Part shown: in pieces, positions 1 to 6,819 of the stretch
Position numbering within the stretch: position 1 is the stretch's first letter
Layout of the letters: each line of letters begins with the position of its first letter
NCBI GenBank assembly: GCA_031406795.1
Contig: JANOHV010000046.1
Coordinates: forward strand, 1-6,819
Direction: 5' to 3'
Source of the DNA: DATDCY01 sp031406795 [NCBI: Candidatus Rokuibacteriota bacterium]
GTDB lineage: Bacteria > JAUVQV01
DNA: 6,819 nt
The notes under the pieces: generated by a model
The model's database searches: none
Told to the model about the DNA's origin: nothing
Seen by the model: the letters and a program-made list of their open reading frames with translations, nothing else
Program-made: the position numbers and the translations under genes

Positions 1-1835
1 AGCATGTCCGTGCGGTCGATGACCTGGAACATCACGAGGTGGAGGTGGATCGGGTGGGCGTCGACCGTGAAGTTGTTGATCTCCCAGATCTCCGTGCTGC
101 CGAAGGCCGGGGTTTCCGTGATCGGGTCCATGAAGTTCATCGGAACGCCGACTCCGTTCACCACGGTGCCGAGCCTGGCGGAGACCGGACCCATCTCCAT
201 GCCGGTCGGGCCGCAGTTGGGCGGCGTCAGCCCCGGCAGGTAGGCCATCGTGACCGCGTCCACGCAGACGAGCGAGGACATGTCCTCGTTCAGGCTCACC
301 TGCCGCGTCGGCGCGCCGACTTCGCTGATCGGGGTGATCGCCGGGAATGCGAGCGTGGCCAGCGGGGGCGTGTCGACCGAGTTCAGCCGCACGACCCGGA
401 ACTGCATCACCTGGCCCGTCGTCGAGGGGTCGGCACGGTCGATCGGGGCGATCGGGAAGCCGCCGAACGGGGAGTCGGGGCCGAGGTTCCTCATCGTGAC
501 CGTGGCCCCGACCTTCATCTTCGAGAAGTCGATGATCACGTCCGCCCGCTCGGCCGGGCCGACGAGAAGCTGCGGGAGCCGCACCGGAGCCGGCAGGAAC
601 CCGCCTTCCGAGCCGATCTGGGTGACCTTGACGTTCATGTTGTTGAGGGCGAGCACGAGGAACCGCGAGTCGGAGCCGTTGAGAATGCGGAAGCGGTACT
701 TGCGCGGCTCGACGTTGAGGAAGGGCCAGGTCTTCCCGTTCACGACCATCGTGTTGCCGAAGAACTCCGGGTTGTGCATCGGGGCGACGTCGCTCGGGAA
801 GAACGCGTCCCCGATGTACGGACCGAGGAAGCCGTCGAAGAAGGCCCGGGTGTCCGGGTAGAAGAGCGAGCCGTTCGCGTTGAACGACCGGTCCTGGATG
901 ACCAGCGGGATCTCATACTTGCCGCGGGGAAGAGCGGTTGCGGGGAGATCATCGGCTCCGCCGCGCACGAGGTAGAACCCCGCCGGCCCCGCGTAGACGT
1001 TCGTGCGGGTCATGCCGAGCGTGTGGTCGTGGAACCAGAGGGTCGTGGCGCGCTGATCGTTGCGATACTGATAGAGCGCCTCCCCGGGGATTACGAGCGC
1101 GCCCGGGATCTGGCTCTGATTGAAGGTCGACCCCACGGTCGCGTACGTCGGATCGATGTTGTTCGCCGCCGGCAGGAACCAGGCGGTGGGGTAGCCGTCG
1201 CTGTGGTCCTCCACGTGCGCGCCGTGCAGGTGCGGGACCGACGGCACGGGGCCGCTGTAGGGGAGCTGGCTGAGGCCGCGGCAGTCGGGCATCGGCATTC
1301 CCGGCATCGGGTTGATGCAATCCTGCGGCGGGTTCGCCCAGTGCAGCGTCTGGTCCACCGGAAGCAGATGGGGCAGGAAATTGCAGGCCGGGTCGGTGGC
1401 CGGGCTCGCCGATGCCGCGCAGGCATCCGGGTTGACGACCAGCTGGTTCACCCACTTGACCCGCAGCGGCTTGTTGTACGCGGCTTCGATCGAAAGCGAC
1501 GGGTAGCTGAACGTCGCCGGGTTGGTCAAGGACCCGTACCCCCAGACCGTCGTCTTGGGGAGAGCCTTGTTCCTGGTGGACTTGGAGGAGAGCACCTGCT
1601 GTTTGAACTGCCGCAGGCCGATCTCGTAGTAGTCGATGCCCTGTCCGGCCAGGACGGGATCAGGTGTCTGCGGCATGACGCCCGGGATGGGCAGCGGGTC
1701 GACGAACTTGGCGATCGACAGGGGATTGAGCGTTCCTCCCGGCAGTGGCGCCGCGGAGCTTGAGGCGGACAATGCCGTCGCGACGAGTACCGCGGCCAGG
1801 ACAACAAAGCCAGGAACTTTTCTCGGTGAACTCAT
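1..1835 (-). CDS. Secreted CotA-like multicopper oxidase (3' end outside window)
   Basis: This is a laccase/bilirubin-oxidase type copper enzyme that would oxidise a substrate at a type 1 copper and reduce O2 to water at a trinuclear cluster. The frame is open for 611 codons from the ATG at 1835 to the window edge. Residues 1-30 look like a Sec signal peptide (MSSPRK, a hydrophobic stretch, then an Ala/Ser-rich cleavage region). Copper ligand motifs are visible in family order: HLHG at 202-205, WFHDH at 267-271, and HPIHLH at 594-599. VEPRKYRFRILNGSDSRF starting at 375 and the later PAERADVIIDF stretch match the CotA/bilirubin oxidase branch closely. The fourth motif (HCHxxxHExxxM), expected roughly 70-80 residues further on, lies beyond the window, so all ligands cannot be confirmed. 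The start is supported by a strong Shine-Dalgarno sequence. The gene follows the di-haem peroxidase gene by 173 bp on the same strand. Its substrate is unknown: phenolics, metals such as Mn(II), and bilirubin-like compounds are all possible for this branch. Confidence 0.95.
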   Translation of the reverse strand, partial: MSSPRKVPGFVVLAAVLVATALSASSSAAPLPGGTLNPLSIAKFVDPLPIPGVMPQTPDPVLAGQGIDYYEIGLRQFKQQVLSSKSTRNKALPKTTVWGYGSLTNPATFSYPSLSIEAAYNKPLRVKWVNQLVVNPDACAASASPATDPACNFLPHLLPVDQTLHWANPPQDCINPMPGMPMPDCRGLSQLPYSGPVPSVPHLHGAHVEDHSDGYPTAWFLPAANNIDPTYATVGSTFNQSQIPGALVIPGEALYQYRNDQRATTLWFHDHTLGMTRTNVYAGPAGFYLVRGGADDLPATALPRGKYEIPLVIQDRSFNANGSLFYPDTRAFFDGFLGPYIGDAFFPSDVAPMHNPEFFGNTMVVNGKTWPFLNVEPRKYRFRILNGSDSRFLVLALNNMNVKVTQIGSEGGFLPAPVRLPQLLVGPAERADVIIDFSKMKVGATVTMRNLGPDSPFGGFPIAPIDRADPSTTGQVMQFRVVRLNSVDTPPLATLAFPAITPISEVGAPTRQVSLNEDMSSLVCVDAVTMAYLPGLTPPNCGPTGMEMGPVSARLGTVVNGVGVPMNFMDPITETPAFGSTEIWEINNFTVDAHPIHLHLVMFQVIDRTDM

Positions 1836-1840
1836 TTCCT

Positions 1841-1848
1841 TCCTCCTT
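1841..1848 (-). promoter_or_regulatory. Strong ribosome binding site of the multicopper oxidase
   Basis: Read on the minus strand the bases are AAGGAGGA, a near-perfect anti-Shine-Dalgarno match, five bases before the ATG at 1835. This fixes the start of the multicopper oxidase and suggests efficient translation. Confidence 0.85.
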
Positions 1849-1890
1849 GGTTGGCACCGTTTGTCTCGATGCTCTTCTGCCATGCCGCTT

Positions 1891-1908
1891 TGCATCTGGC
1901 GCGATGCA
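1891..1908 (-). promoter_or_regulatory. Inverted repeat in the multicopper oxidase leader
   Basis: The two arms TGCATC and GATGCA form a perfect 6-bp inverted repeat around a 6-base spacer, about 55-75 bases upstream of the multicopper oxidase start. No T-run follows it on the minus strand, so it does not look like an intrinsic terminator. It could be an operator or a leader hairpin. A 6-bp inverted repeat can also occur by chance, so the call is weak. Confidence 0.25.
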
Positions 1909-1945
1909 TCGTCCCCTTCTTGCTTCCAGGCATATCCCCACAGAT

Positions 1946-1973
1946 CATCTCCATTCGCGCCCACGAAGAGATG
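1946..1973 (-). promoter_or_regulatory. Hairpin between peroxidase and multicopper oxidase genes
   Basis: Read on the minus strand, CATCTC-TTCG, a 6-base loop, CGAA, a 2-base bulge and GAGATG give a 10-bp interrupted stem starting 35 bases after the stop codon of the peroxidase gene. It is not followed by a run of T, so it is not a classical Rho-independent terminator. It may be an mRNA 3'-end stabiliser or processing site that separates expression of the two redox genes. No convincing sigma-70 or sigma-54 promoter was found in the 173-bp gap, so read-through from the upstream gene is plausible. Confidence 0.3.
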
Positions 1974-2008
1974 GTTGAATCAGCTGCTTCTCCCGACGGA
2001 CACCCGCG

Positions 2009-5000
2009 CTACCGCAGCGTGCCTCCCAGCGGGATGGTCCCGTCGAACCCGAACGTCGTCTGAGAGAACCCCTCCGTGCTCTTGAACAGGTACCAGTTGC
2101 CGCCGGTCGGATAGTAGACGCCGTAGTCATCGCGACCGTCACCGTCGAAGTCCCCGACAACCGGTTCCGTTCCCGCGTAGCCGAACGTCGTCTGCGAGAA
2201 GCCTTCCGTGCTCTTGAAGAGGTACCAGTTGCCGCCCGCCGGATAGTAGACGCCGATGTCGTCCCGACCGTCCCCGTCGAAGTCCCCGACCACCGGGATC
2301 GTGCCTGCGTAGCCGAACGCCGTCTGGAAGAAGCCTTCGGTGCTCTTGAACCGGTACCAGTTGCCGCCGGCCGGATAGTAAACGCCCAAGTCATCCCGGC
2401 CGTCCCCGTCGAAGTCCCCCACCACCGGGATCGTTCCTTCGAAACCGAACTGTGTCTGAAAGAACCCCTGGGCGCTCTTGAAAAGGTTCCAGTTGCCACC
2501 GATCTGATCGTAGACGCCGATGTCATCCCGGCCGTCCCCGTCGAAGTCGCCGACCACCGGGATCGTCCCTTCGTAGCCAAAGCCCGTCTCCTGGTGTCCT
2601 TCGGCGGTCTTCGAGAGGAACCACTTCCCGTGCTGATCGTCGTAGACCCCGATGTCATCCCGGCCGTCCCCGTCGAAGTCGGCCGCCACGGGGAGGGTTC
2701 CGGTGTAACCGAACTGCGTCTGACCAAACCCCTCCGTGCTCTTGAAGAGGTACCAACCGCCGCTGTCGGCGTGATAGGCGCCGATGTCCGTGCGGCCGTC
2801 ACCGTCGAAATCGTTCTTCGCGGCGTTTGCGCGGATCTGCTCCGTCACCTGCGGCGCGGCGTTGATGTTGCCGTCGCCGGCCTGGTCGAACGCCACCAGA
2901 CAGTCGCCGCTTGTAGCGGTCATCGTGACGGTCCCTGAACCCGTGCCGACGCCGCTGCACGCACCCGAGGCCGTGATCGCAACCGGCAAGCCGGATGTCG
3001 CCCTCGCCGACACCATGAAGCTGTCGCCGCGCCGCGCCCGCGCCGGGACGTGGTTGATCACGCTGATCGTCTGGGCGGAATTGAACGCGATGGCCGTCGA
3101 GAGCGCCGACCGGTTCCCCTCCGCGTCTGTGGCGCTCACGGCGATGGTATTGGATCCCGACTGAAAATTGGAGATCGACACGCTCCAATTCGTACCGCCG
3201 GCAATGACGACCGCTCCGGCCGTTACGGGAGGGGTCACCACCACCACCGGCACGATGCCGGCTTCGACCGTTCCGGAGACGATCTGCGTCGGCACGCCGG
3301 TCGGAGAGGCGACGGGATTGATGGTCAGAGCGGGCGCGCGCCAGTCCACGGTGATGCTCGTCGAGAGCGAGGTCAGGAGCCCTGCCGCGTCGACCGCGCT
3401 GACGGTGATGGTATTGTCCCCCTGCTGAAGATTCGAGACAAGCGAACTCCACGAGCTGCCCGAGACGAACGGCAGCGTGGCGGTCACCGGGAACGCGACC
3501 GTCACCACCGGCACGATTCCCGCCTCCACCGCGCCGGAGATGCTCTGCGTGGTCGTCGCGGTCGGGGATGCGACGGGGTTGAGGGTCAGCGACGGCGGCG
3601 TCGAATCGAGGGTGATGGTAACCGTCGCCGTCGTCAGAACGCCCAGAAGGTCGACGACGGTTGCCGTGACGACGTTCGCACCGTCGGCGAGCCCCGTCAC
3701 AAGAACATTCCAGTCAGCGTCGATCACGTTCACCCCGGCGACCGGGGTTCCATTGACCGTGATCGTCGGCGTCAATCCCGCCTCCACGGTGCCGGTGACG
3801 ACCTGGGTGGGGATCGAAGTCGGGGAGAGAACGGCGTTGATCATCAGGGTCGCCGACGGCGCCGGCACGCCGTCGGCGTCCGTGGCGGGCAGCCGGGTCA
3901 GGATTTCCGGCTCACCCTCCGGGAGGAGCAACTCCGGATGGTCGAAGGGAGCGGACTCGGCGGCAACCCGCGGGTCGGTCAGCGTTTTCATGAAGGCGAT
4001 CATGGCGGCGTGCATCGCCTCCTGGCCCTGGAGAAGGGGGAGCCCCCGGAAGATGACCGGGTCGATGTCGGCAAGATTATCGATGGGGAAGTTGCCGCCC
4101 CGTGTGTAGAAATCCATCACCCCATCGAGCGTCAGATCGCTGCCGTTGTGGAAGTAGGGGGCGGTGAGCTCGATGTTGCGCAGCGTCGGGGCCTTGAAGG
4201 CACCTTCTGCCGTCACGAGAAGACCAGGTGGGGTGAGCGGCGGAAAGAGCGGCGTGGCGAAGGGCAGACGGCTCTGATTCCACAGCTCGGCACGCCGCGA
4301 AAAGGAGAGCGGATACTGCGCGCCGGTCCGCGGATTCACGAAAGGCGTGGTTCCCCCCTGGCCGATGTCCTCCGTCGTCGGTCTGACGGCGGTGTTGTTG
4401 AAGCCGGTGTCGTAAATGGACGGCGCGCCGTTGGCGGTGAACATTATGTCGAATGCGCGGTTGTCGATGTTGTCCAGGAAGGCAACGCCATCGGCTGAGG
4501 CATTCGTGAAAACAGTACCGTCGTGGCACCCGGTGCATTCGCCGATGCCGGCGAAGAGCTGGAAGCCGGTCTGCTCCTGAGCAGTGAGTGCCGCGGGATC
4601 TCCGGCGAGCCATTGATCGAAGGGTGACTGATCGGAGACCAGGGTCGCCACATAGAGCTGGATCGCGAGTCCCCAGTACAGGGAGAAATTGGCTTCCATC
4701 TGGGTGTTGCCATCCGGCGTGAGATTGGCTGAGTTCCAGAGATTGTTCTGGAACGCGGCCTGGATCATCTGGGCATAGGTCGCGTTCAGCCCGTTCGCGC
4801 CGGAGATGCCCCCGCCCGGCAGGCTGGTTGCTCGGGAGAGAAGACCGAGCACGCTGTCGCCGGGGTGGACGACCTGACGGCCGAGCGGGGACAGACTCAG
4901 CATCTTTCGACCCAGCAGCGGGAAGGTGCGGCCCGCCGCGGACATCTCCGTGTCGTCGAGCGCCGGCCCGGTCGCCTGGGAGGCGAGGCTCGCGAACGGG

Positions 5001-5800
5001 ATGGCCACCCGCTGTTTGACAATGGTGCCTCCCTGGTTAAACCAGACGCCGGCGTCGGGATCGGCGGGGCCGAAGGGATTCACGCCGTTGAAGACATAAA
5101 AGGCCCGCCCGTCCCAGAACTGGTTGAAGTTGAAGATCGCGTTGATCACCGACGGGGACTGACGAGCGGTCACACGCCGCACGTTGAAGGTCGGATCCTC
5201 AACGGCTGGGTCGGGGGCGATGTTGAACACGGGATCCCAGACTGGCGTCACGGTGTCCACGGCGGAGCCGCGCACGACACTCACGAACGCCGCCCGCCGG
5301 ACGCCCTGGGAGCCGACGACATCGTTGGTGTCGGTAATGATGGGGGAGAATCGCGAGTCCGGCGGGTTCGCCCGCCGATGCAGCGGGAAATCGGTGTCGA
5401 GCAGGGTGTAATTCGGTCCGAACTGCGGAAAATCCGGCATGCCGGGGATGAGGTTGTTTCCGAAGACCGGGTCCCCTCCGGGGATCAGAGTATCCCTCGT
5501 CCCGGGGTTCAGCGTATTCTTGCGACGATTGTCGGCTCCGGCATGGAAATGGCAGGTCGCACAGGCCGTCAGGCCGTCACTGCCGACCTGCATGTCCCAG
5601 AAGAAGGCTTTGCCAAGGCGGATCGCGGCTGCCTTGTTCTTGACGAACTGCGCGAGATTGGGGGGTTCCGGAACGAAGACCTGATTCAGCGGAACGAAAC
5701 CGCGCGGGATGATGACCTGCCCCCAGGCAACGACCGCGGATACCAGACAAAGCACGAGGGCGCTCGCTACAATCGGCAGGGCCGGCACAGATCTTTTCAT
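2009..5800 (-). CDS. Secreted di-haem cytochrome c peroxidase/MauG-type protein with Ig-like and FG-GAP/VCBS-like repeats
   Basis: The product is 1263 residues long from the ATG at 5800, against roughly 300-400 for a classical bacterial cytochrome c peroxidase. Residues 1-28 form a Sec signal peptide (MKRS, hydrophobic core, cleavage near AWGQ). The catalytic part spans about 35-612. It has CATCH at 80-84, FWDGRA at 228-233, CTGCH at 422-426, FKAPTLRNIELTAPYFHNGS at 535-554 and MKTLTD at 604-609, the order expected of the CCP/MauG di-haem family. Classical members reduce H2O2 with electrons from small cytochromes or copper proteins, while relatives oxidise proteins or polymers. A linker (613-651) leads to three Ig-like repeats (from 652, 738 and 825), an all-beta segment at about 911-996 with two cysteines, and six 44-residue DFDGDGRDD-type repeats from 997 to the end. 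A start at 5842, giving 14 more residues, has a better-spaced Shine-Dalgarno sequence, but 5800 gives the more typical signal peptide. The protein is probably periplasmic, surface-attached or secreted. Its substrate is unknown. Confidence 0.93.
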   Translation of the reverse strand: MKRSVPALPIVASALVLCLVSAVVAWGQVIIPRGFVPLNQVFVPEPPNLAQFVKNKAAAIRLGKAFFWDMQVGSDGLTACATCHFHAGADNRRKNTLNPGTRDTLIPGGDPVFGNNLIPGMPDFPQFGPNYTLLDTDFPLHRRANPPDSRFSPIITDTNDVVGSQGVRRAAFVSVVRGSAVDTVTPVWDPVFNIAPDPAVEDPTFNVRRVTARQSPSVINAIFNFNQFWDGRAFYVFNGVNPFGPADPDAGVWFNQGGTIVKQRVAIPFASLASQATGPALDDTEMSAAGRTFPLLGRKMLSLSPLGRQVVHPGDSVLGLLSRATSLPGGGISGANGLNATYAQMIQAAFQNNLWNSANLTPDGNTQMEANFSLYWGLAIQLYVATLVSDQSPFDQWLAGDPAALTAQEQTGFQLFAGIGECTGCHDGTVFTNASADGVAFLDNIDNRAFDIMFTANGAPSIYDTGFNNTAVRPTTEDIGQGGTTPFVNPRTGAQYPLSFSRRAELWNQSRLPFATPLFPPLTPPGLLVTAEGAFKAPTLRNIELTAPYFHNGSDLTLDGVMDFYTRGGNFPIDNLADIDPVIFRGLPLLQGQEAMHAAMIAFMKTLTDPRVAAESAPFDHPELLLPEGEPEILTRLPATDADGVPAPSATLMINAVLSPTSIPTQVVTGTVEAGLTPTITVNGTPVAGVNVIDADWNVLVTGLADGANVVTATVVDLLGVLTTATVTITLDSTPPSLTLNPVASPTATTTQSISGAVEAGIVPVVTVAFPVTATLPFVSGSSWSSLVSNLQQGDNTITVSAVDAAGLLTSLSTSITVDWRAPALTINPVASPTGVPTQIVSGTVEAGIVPVVVVTPPVTAGAVVIAGGTNWSVSISNFQSGSNTIAVSATDAEGNRSALSTAIAFNSAQTISVINHVPARARRGDSFMVSARATSGLPVAITASGACSGVGTGSGTVTMTATSGDCLVAFDQAGDGNINAAPQVTEQIRANAAKNDFDGDGRTDIGAYHADSGGWYLFKSTEGFGQTQFGYTGTLPVAADFDGDGRDDIGVYDDQHGKWFLSKTAEGHQETGFGYEGTIPVVGDFDGDGRDDIGVYDQIGGNWNLFKSAQGFFQTQFGFEGTIPVVGDFDGDGRDDLGVYYPAGGNWYRFKSTEGFFQTAFGYAGTIPVVGDFDGDGRDDIGVYYPAGGNWYLFKSTEGFSQTTFGYAGTEPVVGDFDGDGRDDYGVYYPTGGNWYLFKSTEGFSQTTFGFDGTIPLGGTLR
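2012..2812 (-). repeat. Six 132-bp tandem repeats encoding FG-GAP/VCBS-like Ca-loop motifs
   Basis: Six in-frame copies of a 44-residue unit run from residue 997 to the C-terminus of the peroxidase fusion. Each starts with DFDGDGR(D/T)D, continues GVY...GGNWYLFKSTEGF, and ends with an FGY.GT.PVVG stretch. The exact 132-bp step was checked at the first two units (2812 and 2680). The D-x-D-G-D-G-x-x-D loop resembles calcium-binding loops of FG-GAP/VCBS and integrin-like propeller repeats. Units 4-6 are nearly identical in protein and very similar in DNA, while units 1 and 2 are the most diverged, which suggests recent duplication or homogenisation at the distal end. A cell-surface or substrate-binding role is inferred from the repeat type. 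Confidence 0.9.
3071..3847 (-). repeat. Three Ig-like repeats within the peroxidase fusion
   Basis: Three consecutive units of about 86 residues start at 652, 738 and 825 of the fusion protein. Each opens with L-x-(I/L)-N-(P/A)-V-x-SPT, followed by a (S/T)G(T/A)VEAG turn, a central tryptophan (absent from no unit), a G.N.(I/V)..(S/A)..D stretch and a closing beta-strand. This is the layout of bacterial Ig-like domains found in surface proteins, where they act as spacer stalks or carbohydrate/cell-wall binding modules. They would hold the haem domain away from the C-terminal Ca-loop repeats. Boundaries are approximate. Confidence 0.75.
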
Positions 5801-5811
5801 TGCAGCCCGCA

Positions 5812-5858
5812 CTCCAGAAGTTCCCGGCCTGGTTCCTTCCATATAATCCGTCTCCCTC
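5812..5858 (-). promoter_or_regulatory. Competing ribosome binding sites for the peroxidase start
   Basis: Two candidate Shine-Dalgarno elements lie here on the minus strand. GAGGGAGA (5851-5858) sits with its GGAG nine bases before the ATG at 5842. A GGAG (5812-5815) sits eleven bases before the ATG at 5800. The first is better spaced but gives a signal peptide with an unusually long n-region (MEGTRPGTSGVRAA before MKRS). The start therefore cannot be settled from sequence alone. Confidence 0.5.
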
Positions 5859-5879
5859 ACCCTCTCCGTCTGGTTCCGT

Positions 5880-5893
5880 GGCGCGTATGCGCC
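5880..5893 (-). promoter_or_regulatory. Small GC hairpin between the Cys-rich gene and the peroxidase gene
   Basis: The arms GGCGC and GCGCC pair around a 4-base loop, 11 bases after the stop codon of the small Cys protein gene. No T-run follows, so it is probably not a full terminator. It may modulate mRNA stability or read-through into the peroxidase gene. Confidence 0.25.
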
Positions 5894-5904
5894 GGTTCCG
5901 ATGG

Positions 5905-6138
5905 CTACCCGTAGGCCTCGGCTGCGAGGGCGTCCGCACCGGCGCCGCCGTGGTGGTGCGCGTAGATCTCGCACTTCTCGAAATCGCCGCCACAGTAGTC
6001 GATGGCCTTTTCCACTTCCGCGCTCCCCAAGCCCTTGATGTAACAGTCGTCGAAGGGCGTCTCCAGATGCGGACATCGCCTTTTTGGGCCAAGCGCCGTC
6101 ACGTAAGCAACCTGCCTTTCGATGAACGTTCGTCTCAT
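5905..6138 (-). CDS. Small four-cysteine protein of unknown function (77 aa)
   Basis: I do not recognise a named family. The product is 77 residues with four cysteines at C22, C32, C49 and C56, in the pattern C-P-x8-C-Y, then Y-C-G-G-x4-C-x-I-Y. No signal peptide or membrane segment is visible, so it is probably cytoplasmic. The Cys spacing suggests a metal (Zn or Fe-S) site or a redox-active pair, and it is reminiscent of short Cys motifs (YCxGxFxxC) attached to regulatory proteins in some anaerobic and deltaproteobacterial genomes. That is inference. The tail carries HHH at 61-63 followed by an Ala/Gly-rich end. The ATG at 6138 has an AAGGA directly before it, at short spacing. A GTG at codon 13 is an alternative start and would suit transcription from the sigma-54-like element just upstream. 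The gene lies between the NtrC-type regulator and the peroxidase, 104 bases before the latter (62 if the start is 5842). It might be a sensor, adaptor or metallochaperone for the redox genes. Confidence 0.7.
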   Translation of the reverse strand: MRRTFIERQVAYVTALGPKRRCPHLETPFDDCYIKGLGSAEVEKAIDYCGGDFEKCEIYAHHHGGAGADALAAEAYG

Positions 6139-6144
6139 GGTCCT

Positions 6145-6160
6145 TACAAGAATCGAGCCA
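6145..6160 (-). promoter_or_regulatory. Candidate sigma-54 (-24/-12) promoter
   Basis: Read on the minus strand the bases are TGGCTCGATTCTTGTA. Against the consensus TGGCACGRNNNTTGCW, the TGGC and TTG blocks and their spacing are kept, with mismatches at position 5 (T for A) and position 15 (T for C). The second mismatch falls in the important -12 GC and lowers confidence. A start about 12 bases downstream would fall at about codon 2 of the small Cys gene as annotated. Transcripts would then begin at or inside that gene and continue into the peroxidase. The neighbouring NtrC-type regulator makes a sigma-54 promoter here plausible. Confidence 0.4.
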
Positions 6161-6259
6161 GCGCGGAACCCTACGGCCGAGCAACCATTTGTTCCTGGAA
6201 AAACAATGAGTTCGAAGAAGCGACGCCGTTTGCAGCCAGGAAGTTGATCGAGCAGCGGA

Positions 6260-6326
6260 TGTGGCATGCCACAGGTATGGGGCGCCACACAAGTGCTGCC
6301 TTTCAGGAAGATTATCGACGTGTGGC
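6260..6326. promoter_or_regulatory. Palindrome and half-sites, candidate activator binding cluster
   Basis: TGTGGCATGCCACA at 6260-6273 is a perfect 14-bp palindrome. The same half-site occurs twice more nearby: GCCACA at 6284-6289 and TGTGGC at 6321-6326. The palindrome centre is about 107 bp upstream of the -24 region of the sigma-54-like element, a usual distance for an enhancer-type upstream activating sequence. Fis-type helix-turn-helix domains of NtrC-family proteins bind such dyads as dimers. The likely ligand is the regulator encoded immediately to the right, by proximity only. Confidence 0.4.
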
Positions 6327-6350
6327 GGGACGGTCAGCTGAAGCGCAGAT

Positions 6351-6819
6351 TCACTCCGCGGGTCCATCCGGGAGGTGGTGCTTCTCCATCTTTCGATATA
6401 GGGTCTTCCGGTCGATTCCCAGTACCCTCGCCGCCCGCGCCTTGTTTCCGGCGGTCCTCTGCAGCGCCGCGAGGATCTTTCGGGCCTCGTCCCCCTGATG
6501 CAAAGGCGCAACGGCTGGAGTGGCGCCGTCGCCGCCCCTGAGCTGTGATGGCAGATGCTCGAGGCAGATCGTCCCGCCGGGACAGAATACCAATGCGTGT
6601 TCGAGGGCGTTCTGAAGCTCTCTGACGTTCCCGGGCCAGGGGTAGCCCGCGAGGAGGTGCTCCACGTCCGAGGAGAGCCCGGTGATCTCCTTGTTCAGCC
6701 TCGCGACGAGCTTCCTGATGAAATGCCGCACCAGAAGGGTGATATCCCCGCCGCGTTCCTTGAGGGGCGGGAGAGAGATCTCCACGACCTTGAGGCGGTA
6801 GTAAAGGTCCTCCCTGAAG
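6351..6819 (-). CDS. Sigma-54-dependent transcriptional regulator, NtrC family (C-terminal part)
   Basis: The gene enters from the right edge and ends at a TGA at 6351. The visible part is 155 residues. It begins FREDLYYRLKVVEISLPPL, continues with the ERGGDI and HF region, and carries YPWPGNVREL at about 59-68. These are the C-terminal half of the sigma-54 interaction AAA+ domain with its sensor II region. After a short linker rich in Ala, Pro and Gly, residues about 111-147 form a Fis-type helix-turn-helix (ARKILAALQRTAGNKARAAR followed by VLGIDRKTLYRK). The protein hydrolyses ATP to open sigma-54 promoters and binds enhancer dyads. The N-terminal sensory domain, the GAFTGA loop and the Walker motifs lie outside the window, so the signal sensed is unknown. 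A receiver domain with a partner kinase is common for this type. The downstream intergenic region carries a matching promoter and palindrome, so it likely controls the genes to its left. Confidence 0.95.
   Translation of the reverse strand, partial: FREDLYYRLKVVEISLPPLKERGGDITLLVRHFIRKLVARLNKEITGLSSDVEHLLAGYPWPGNVRELQNALEHALVFCPGGTICLEHLPSQLRGGDGATPAVAPLHQGDEARKILAALQRTAGNKARAARVLGIDRKTLYRKMEKHHLPDGPAE

Follow-up and report, generated by a model that had tools for sequence, protein, structure and literature searches.

A MauG-type di-haem protein with Ig-like and FG-GAP modules beside a multicopper oxidase gene: a candidate member of an extracellular copper-haem oxidase set

Introduction

Why would a haem enzyme end in a C-terminal half built of Ig-like and FG-GAP modules? 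The question is raised by a 6,819-nucleotide stretch of DNA from a Candidatus Rokuibacteriota bacterium (contig JANOHV010000046.1; hereafter "the window", meaning the whole stretch analysed), in which one gene encodes a di-haem protein of the CCP_MauG type followed by such modules. MauG-type enzymes hold a very strong oxidant, and they are known mostly from the periplasm, with the protein SACCP as a surface exception. Our preferred reading, to which we assign a probability of roughly 0.6, is that the protein is a secreted MauG-type di-haem oxidase or peroxidase, tethered at the cell surface or in the matrix, which would act as one enzyme of an extracellular copper-haem oxidase set. The reading is assembled from what we observe of the gene structure, the predicted core fold, the ligand pattern, the copper-oxidase neighbourhood, and the tails that relatives share with their neighbours and swap among themselves.

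Results

Gene structure and domain order

The first-pass annotation, made from the letters of the window, had described a di-haem peroxidase fused to Ig-like and FG-GAP/VCBS-like modules at 2009-5800. That description holds: the span is exact, Pfam matches are found to these families, and the open reading frame (ORF; 5800..2009, minus strand) runs uninterrupted through 1263 sense codons from an ATG start to one terminal stop. The parts of the protein are as follows.

5717..5800, minus strand: N-terminal Sec-type signal peptide, residues 1-28 (MKRSVPALPIVASALVLCLVSAVVAWGQ), read by eye
3881..5719, minus strand: enlarged di-haem CCP_MauG core, residues 28-640 (Pfam, alignment of 42 sequences, AlphaFold2 model, VIA-align)
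5549..5563, minus strand: haem-1 motif CATCH, residues 80-84; C80, C83 and H84 in 42/42 aligned cores
5114..5116, minus strand: Trp229 of the FWDGRA motif
4946..4978, minus strand: putative distal pocket Gln275, Pro279, Glu285 (QATGPALDDTE)
4523..4537, minus strand: haem-2 motif CTGCH, residues 422-426; C422, C425 and H426 in 42/42
4106..4108, minus strand: Tyr565, predicted axial ligand of haem 2
3056..3880, minus strand: three Ig-like domains, residues 641-915 (Pfam; similarity to the tail of relative L001)
2834..3055, minus strand: further segment, about residues 916-989, taken as all-beta
2012..2833, minus strand: six FG-GAP/VCBS-like calcium-loop repeats of 44 residues each, residues 990-1263 (Pfam, register, tandem-repeat scan)

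The modules of the C-terminal half are well supported by profile matches. The three Ig-like repeats are recovered in the region of about residues 640-910 as three stretches of Glucodextran_B and two of Big_13, and this region is 42% identical over 266 residues to the tail of L001. The six calcium-loop repeats correspond to D-x-D-G-D-G loops at residues 997, 1041, 1085, 1129, 1173 and 1217, with a spacing of exactly 44, and FG-GAP_3 and FG-GAP each match on five stretches (FG-GAP_3 at 57.5 bits against a cut-off of 26.9), such that profiles and calcium loops agree on the FG-GAP assignment. The signal peptide, in which no lipobox is apparent by eye, and the additional, putatively all-beta segment, in which no Pfam match is found, are read from the sequence, as in the earlier description.

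The whole length of the gene looks coding, since codon bias is uniform (the GC content of third codon positions is 0.81-0.89 across all four segments) and divergence falls on third positions. In the last three FG-GAP repeats, which lie in a tandem array at 2049-2755 (Tandem Repeats Finder, period 132, score 755), third positions carry 11/15, 14/23 and 13/20 of the nucleotide differences; the lean is weaker in the older repeats, for example 22/55 for the first pair. The same in-frame fusion of core and FG-GAP tail recurs in three gene copies of one other genome, G439 (loci L132, L133 and L179; L numbers denote loci of relatives and G numbers genomes), which makes a frameshift or an assembly artefact unlikely. 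The FG-GAP match of L132 lies above the Pfam cut-off and that of L133 just below it (FG-GAP_3, 25.6 against 26.9 bits), while L179 is assigned by the 68% identity of its tail over 133 residues to that of L132.

Haem core

The core matches Pfam CCP_MauG (PF03150) at 70 bits against a cut-off of 25.6 (E 4.4e-19), and with its two CxxCH motifs and a predicted di-haem fold it falls within the CCP_MauG superfamily as modelled. An alignment of 42 cores, the other 41 being 35-62% identical to that of the window, gave an AlphaFold2 model with a predicted local distance difference test score (pLDDT) of 84.1 and a predicted template modelling score (pTM) of 0.89. Structure prediction, which the first-pass annotation had proposed, is thus confident for the core and of very low confidence for the C-terminal half. 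Foldseek and VIA-align place the modelled core among di-haem peroxidases, with VIA Z values from 23.5 to 17.1 for entries of cytochrome c peroxidase (CCP), MbnH, MauG and BthA: 23.5 for YhjA and MacA, 22.6 for MbnH (PDB 6e1c), up to 20.8 for MauG and 17.3 for BthA (6nx0), where values less than 1 apart are to be read as tied. About 265-325 of the 613 core residues align to these solved structures, so roughly half of the core is family-specific.

Both haem-binding His residues together with Gln275, Pro279 and Glu285 are invariant (42/42 cores), the latter three aligning with the QA-GP---EM motif of bacterial cytochrome c peroxidases (bCCPs). Trp229, whose FWDGRA motif also aligns with bCCPs and which we take to be the likely counterpart of the inter-haem Trp93 of MauG, is Trp in 38/42 and His in the other 4. 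Position 565 is Tyr in 41/42 cores and Leu in one (L002). The second haem is ligated by Met-His in bCCPs and by Tyr-His in MauG and BthA, and a conserved Gln/Pro/Glu set is described for the latter two in excerpts of PMC6405878, for which we take Gln275/Pro279/Glu285 to be the equivalents. Since Tyr565 aligns in phmmer with the Tyr at chain position 294 of MauG, and bCCPs have Met there, the ligand pattern puts the enzyme on the MauG/BthA side, with a predicted His/Tyr second haem. Membership of the bCCPs was rejected on the same position.

MbnH, BthA and MauG thus share with the window core the fold, the Tyr-type second haem and the Gln/Pro/Glu pocket, and differ in that only about half of the roughly 600-residue window core can be aligned with them. 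The equivalog models were likewise rejected, with 99.3 bits against a cut-off of 362.85 for MbnH (TIGR04039) and 82.1 against 443.85 for MauG (NCBIfam). MbnP was sought as a partner in 13 proteins, four from the window, which is truncated at either end, and nine from relatives, a minority of the neighbours, and no match was found.

Relatives and exchange of the C-terminal half

One scan of genome contigs gave 72 matching stretches, of which 56 were confirmed as relatives. Used as query at E 1e-60, the window core has a match in 26 genomes out of 295 in the L002 phylum; at E 1e-70 it has one in 11 out of 395 in the L011 phylum and in 3 out of 400 in the L001 phylum. Of the 83 haem ORFs collected, 58 non-redundant members in 57 loci were retained. 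The 8 set aside because they lack the core-end motif comprise three fragments and five tailed proteins (L017, L022, L104, L110 and one of the L028 pair); a further 17 were removed as near-copies (at least 85%) or as belonging to the duplicate L001 contig. Fragments of L044 and L038, one short row each, count among the 58 and are absent from the tree; L177-L180 and L183 enter none of the counts, and L179, L180 and L110 were added to the tree.

Across these relatives the core is conserved and the tails are swapped, with FG-GAP, SLH, CarboxypepD_reg, Ig and other modules in its wake. The tail of L001 carries Big_13 and Big_6, that of L002 He_PIG and CarboxypepD_reg, that of L021 Big_9, that of L104 CarboxypepD_reg, and that of L106 HYR and ankyrin; L011 ends in an Ig-like repeat, with Y_Y_Y below its cut-off in the haem protein and above it in a co-tagged protein. 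In L134 an SLH (S-layer anchor) domain is present on the haem enzyme and also on a neighbour. The repeats of L103 receive no Pfam call, and repeats encoded in its genome align with the L132 FG-GAP tail (31-34% over 123-165 residues). The earlier statement that MauG/CCP proteins are normally stand-alone enzymes needs softening for this enlarged sub-family, in which 20 of the 58 non-redundant members extend at least 110 residues past the core. The protein of Nostoc linckia, a cultured member, lacks a long tail.

In a tree from a quick search, in which 21 of 57 forks are open, the window core sits with L001 (a Chloroflexi metagenome-assembled genome, MAG), L002 (a Nitrospirae MAG), L131 and L011 (a Deltaproteobacteria MAG). 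It belongs to a 16-row group with support 97 that includes nine loci with a split multicopper oxidase, described below, and five FG-GAP-type members (the window, L103, L132, L133 and L179).

Several copies of the haem gene are found in some genomes. G439 has at least four haem-core copies (L132, L133, L179 and L180), three of them FG-GAP-tagged, and tandem haem genes occur in Photobacterium (L028:5956-8226 and 8686-11010) and in a Planctomycetota MAG (L016:5947-8478 and 8721-11342). At L044:5680-7886 the haem gene is spread over two ORFs meeting at 7155 and looks like an interrupted copy.

The copper-oxidase neighbourhood

The first-pass annotation did not see the copper side of this locus. 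The gene that follows the haem gene in the window encodes a CotA/PhsA-like multicopper oxidase (MCO), and such genes are the most recurrent neighbours found in the family. The remaining genes of the window are listed here with it.

3..1835, minus strand: multicopper oxidase gene P0002, start taken at the Met of MSSPRK, ending at the window edge (Cu-oxidase_2)
5905..6288, minus strand: small Cys/His-rich ORF P0004, between the regulator and the haem gene
6351..6818, minus strand: C-terminal part of a sigma-54-dependent regulator (AAA lid, Fis-type HTH), upstream (Pfam/NCBIfam)

P0002 matches Cu-oxidase_2 and falls below the cut-offs of the PhsA and CueO profiles, its best solved relatives being CotA laccase (E 4.7e-70). 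It contains the motifs HLHG, HDH and HPIHLH, with the last copper motif and the C-terminus past the window end. P0004 is matched by neither Pfam nor NCBIfam and lacks relatives in the loci compared, for which reason it was dropped as a conserved partner of the haem protein. A scan of 1700-6500 for promoters and terminators gave one promoter-like site (0.6 expected) and three terminator-like ones (3.5 expected), and so nothing usable; a megablast of the window against plasmids found no near match.

Around the 58 non-redundant members, a multicopper oxidase is found in the surrounding stretch of 18, at nearest distances of 11 to 6254 bases, an SCO1/SenC gene near 9 and a MofC-like gene near 1 (L011). 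Many of these stretches are short (mean flank 9.5 kb, 553 kb in total). Scaling the 64 PF07732 hits in 35.6 Mb (ten genomes) to 553 kb of flank gives, by rough arithmetic, a chance expectation of about one oxidase linkage. The estimate is low, as PF07732 misses some oxidases (e.g., that of L076); the ten genomes were chosen for having the haem gene. Unsupervised clustering of the neighbours likewise ranks multicopper oxidases first (11 of 57 loci), followed by a regulator-like family (10), and recovers two split-oxidase families in 7 and 6 loci. When the tree is labelled by three-domain oxidase, split oxidase or none seen, 12 changes are needed against a shuffled mean of 18.6, with 0 of 200 shuffles as low, meaning that the oxidase labels are clustered on the tree yet gained or lost repeatedly. 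In L107, L108, L109, L111 and L112 an MCO gene, a small SCO1-type gene and the haem gene are consecutive on one strand; the SCO1 call is made by Pfam in L107, by similarity in L108, L111 and L112, and by eye in L109, and L107 and L109 are near-copies of L108.

The split oxidase is apparently a multicopper oxidase divided over two adjacent genes, A and B, of which B may travel with A. Oxidase A has a start of the twin-arginine (Tat) type and MHxHxNH-like and CYPMHDHSE motifs, and lacks HxHG; oxidase B shows no signal peptide by eye and has HTIHWHG and HCHRNTxQH motifs. The pairs are as follows.

L002: A 1890-3329, B 3401-5857
L011: A 8903-10423, B 10486-12786
L177: A 2080-3489, B 3563-5026
L183: A 2681-4093, B 4164-5510

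In the last of these (L183:2681-10000, genome G126) oxidase A, oxidase B, a tagged protein, an SCO1-like and a MofC-like gene form a run, assigned by similarity, that comes near the parts list of mof/ompB clusters. A recurrent secreted protein also stands beside the haem gene in 6 of the 58 non-redundant members, often with the same tail, and its N-terminal part has no family match in the members scanned. Its copies are listed below.

L002: 9023-12250
L103: 4583-7495 and 10343-13267
L107: 9322-11790
L109: 3805-6312
L132: 7984-10542

Tails shared between the haem enzyme and its neighbours

The tail of the haem enzyme is homologous to part of a non-haem neighbour in 11 of the 20 non-redundant tailed members. 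As a control, the last 250 residues of 37 other large genes in the same loci were compared with the other genes, and 4 of 37 gave a match, namely one pair of cluster proteins in L001 and one pair that, judging by sequence, appear to be transporters. Four of the 11 (L008, L020, L026 and L050) have dockerin-like tails, judged by eye; such tails are common in Planctomycetes. Of the tailed proteins dropped from the set, L104 stands outside this test and the other four have no non-haem neighbour sharing the tail, which would lower the share, and L107 and L109 do share a tail with a neighbour and would raise it; these two were dropped as near-copies of L108, whose shorter stretch shows none.

Genome-wide searches show which proteins carry the same tail. 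The L011 tail was traced in G001 to five proteins (six matches), which are the haem enzyme, split oxidase B, a 1442-residue CotA-like oxidase and two secreted proteins without assigned function. The final 86 residues of the L002 protein recur in G002 on five cluster proteins, two being oxidase B copies, and on one protein of 2119 residues. In G439 the FG-GAP tail occurs on three haem enzymes and on their neighbours, and FG-GAP-tagged proteins directly follow the split-oxidase pairs on contigs C304 and C161 (L177 and L178). The tagged set of G126 includes proteins on the L181 contig, the gene next after the L181 oxidase among them, and one protein inside the L183 run described above. The tail of the L001 oxidase B occurs once in its genome, and the L001 haem tail showed no sharing in a search limited to its own locus.

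Discussion

In view of the shared tails, a surface anchor and a signal peptide, the C-terminal half is best read as a means of extracellular tethering, and we would describe it as an interchangeable address. The earlier proposal of a haem oxidase outside the cell or tethered to a matrix gains support from the comparison with relatives, through the SLH domains of L134, the T9SS-like tail of L006, the other surface modules, and the tails shared with secreted neighbours; for the window's own organism the location would follow by extension from these sequences. It is very probable that the haem enzyme is secreted and held at the surface, and we think it likely that it works in one set with copper oxidases. 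That it directly oxidises an external substrate is a more tentative proposal, with the odds somewhat against it.

The mechanism we envisage would run as follows. The Ig and FG-GAP half would hold the haem enzyme at the cell surface or in the extracellular matrix, and the same exchangeable module on the haem enzyme and on secreted neighbours, sometimes oxidases, would bring them to one place. Haem 1 would react with H2O2 to give a ferryl state, it and the Tyr-ligated haem 2 would share the hole by way of Trp229, and the oxidising power so stored may then act extracellularly on a partner or substrate tethered along with the enzyme. Oxidation of a metal (Mn/Fe) or of phenolics jointly with the copper oxidase would be a first guess.

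A number of observations weigh against this account. None of the five neighbour families sought is seen around 34 of the 58 members, which include each of the 11 rows from Acidobacteria, 4 of the 5 from cyanobacteria and the one from Photobacterium. The closest relative found for P0002, in L181 (44%), has no such tag, and the tail of P0002 itself lies beyond the window edge. Nine of the 20 tailed members (L001, L006, L016, L021, L025, L105, L106, L108 and L137) have no non-haem neighbour sharing the tail, and in L008, L020, L026 and L050 one of the two neighbour matches falls near the N-terminus of the neighbour rather than in its tail. The tag of G126 is spread over many contigs, with 24 matches in about 15 open frames, and is therefore not confined to the oxidase set in that genome. 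No tail is present in L131, which is closely related to the window (62%); the type IX secretion system (T9SS)-like sorting tail of L006 is a weak match (Por_Secre_tail, 23.5 bits against a cut-off of 27); and a single-sequence model of the C-terminal 360 residues has a pLDDT of 39, too low for a fold such as a closed beta-propeller to be read from it.

Pairs of a di-haem and a copper protein are a known theme, as passages of PMC3621798 and PMC3912023 indicate. In SACCP (MCA2590)/MopE of Methylococcus capsulatus and CorB/CorA of Methylomicrobium album a MauG-family di-haem protein is encoded with a copper-binding partner, as here, and SACCP is reported on the cell surface with MopE (excerpts of PMC4831470 and PMC3912023). 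The likeness drawn here is one of description, and there are differences: their partner is a kynurenine copper protein and here it is a multicopper oxidase, CorB is reported to be mainly periplasmic, and we found no report of a tail common to SACCP or CorB and its partner. The mtoX-SCO1/senC-mauG operon of methanethiol oxidase (PMC5739008, from excerpts) combines a copper enzyme, SCO1 and a MauG-type protein in an operon-like run, as in the relatives here, with the difference that its copper enzyme is SBP56-like, whereas here a multicopper oxidase is found with a haem protein bearing surface modules. The mofABC/ompB clusters of Leptothrix, Geobacter and Fe(II) oxidisers comprise an extracellular multicopper oxidase, a MofC-like cytochrome c, a periplasmic-binding protein and SCO1/SenC, their metal role itself being only proposed (excerpts of PMC5566968). 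MofC-like genes are found next to the haem gene (L011) and next to the oxidase pair (L183), which recalls these clusters; the word peroxidase is absent from the main text of PMC5566968, so that a CCP_MauG partner is not described there. FG-GAP/VCBS repeat proteins have D-x-D-G-D-G loops in register, as the window protein does, and differ in that the window repeats are fused to a redox enzyme and, in G439, are common to its neighbours. In searches of the open-licence PMC literature we recognised no description of this copper-haem set.

These known themes can be seen as pulling two ways, toward maturation of a copper partner or toward joint oxidation of an outside substrate. As a maturase, the haem enzyme would oxidise a Trp or Tyr of its copper partner, as MauG makes tryptophan tryptophylquinone and as SACCP and CorB are thought to make kynurenine in MopE and CorA, after which SCO1 would load copper. 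The His/Tyr ligand pattern, the recurrence of di-haem/copper-protein pairs elsewhere and the order of MCO, SCO1-type and haem genes in L107, L108, L109, L111 and L112, with its parallel in the mtoX operon, all fit such a role. A maturase would usually be expected to serve one partner, however, and oxidases of at least two types, the three-domain and the split, are paired with this family, in which many members have no copper gene nearby. We regard maturation as rather unlikely; the variety of oxidase types found with the haem family tilts us toward joint action, though not strongly.

The alternative of a surface peroxidase for H2O2 defence, that is, a cytochrome c peroxidase that gained adhesive domains, is improbable. 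It would account for the intact Gln/Pro/Glu pocket and for a fold as near to the bCCPs as to MauG-like enzymes (Z 23.5 against 22.6 for MbnH and 20.8 for MauG), and it is opposed by the Tyr, not Met, at the second haem in 41/42 cores and by the copper-oxidase neighbourhood. Still less probable is a role akin to that of the secreted rubber oxygenases RoxA and RoxB, namely oxygenation of a bulky organic polymer. RoxA is secreted and of similar size, and RoxA-like_Cyt-c matches weakly at residues 535-567 (E 2.7e-5, 24.1 bits against a cut-off of 26.7); this match is limited to the common LRN-LTAPYFH motif, the NCBIfam RoxC model scores 12.1 bits against a cut-off of 900, and the Glu/Gln/Pro pocket would suit peroxide chemistry, so RoxA/RoxC membership was rejected. 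That a misassembly or frameshift joined a peroxidase to a repeat protein is hardly credible, even though assemblies fail at tandem repeats and the contig may be metagenomic, given the uniform codon bias, the third-position divergence and the like fusions in L132, L133 and L179.

Returning to the preferred reading of a tethered enzyme in a copper-haem set, a wider form of it is possible, at somewhat less than even odds: an undescribed extracellular set spanning several phyla, in which a lineage-specific C-terminal address, copied onto several members, would gather the MauG-type enzyme with multicopper oxidases (whole or split), SCO1 and a MofC-like cytochrome, and which would oxidise Mn/Fe or the matrix. 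A MauG-kind enzyme with an adhesive tail, whose relatives are often found near copper oxidases and have tails in common with gene neighbours, points to an unstudied set of oxidising enzymes that may be displayed together outside the cell. The relevant setting is that of uncultured groundwater and sediment bacteria, whose surface oxidases of Mn, Fe and matrix are an open question. Co-tagging may also serve as a tool for finding the members of an extracellular pathway, through the tail that they have in common. A family that travels with copper oxidases and is displayed outside the cell would add a testable candidate for the oxidation of Mn, Fe or matrix polymers at the surface of these bacteria.

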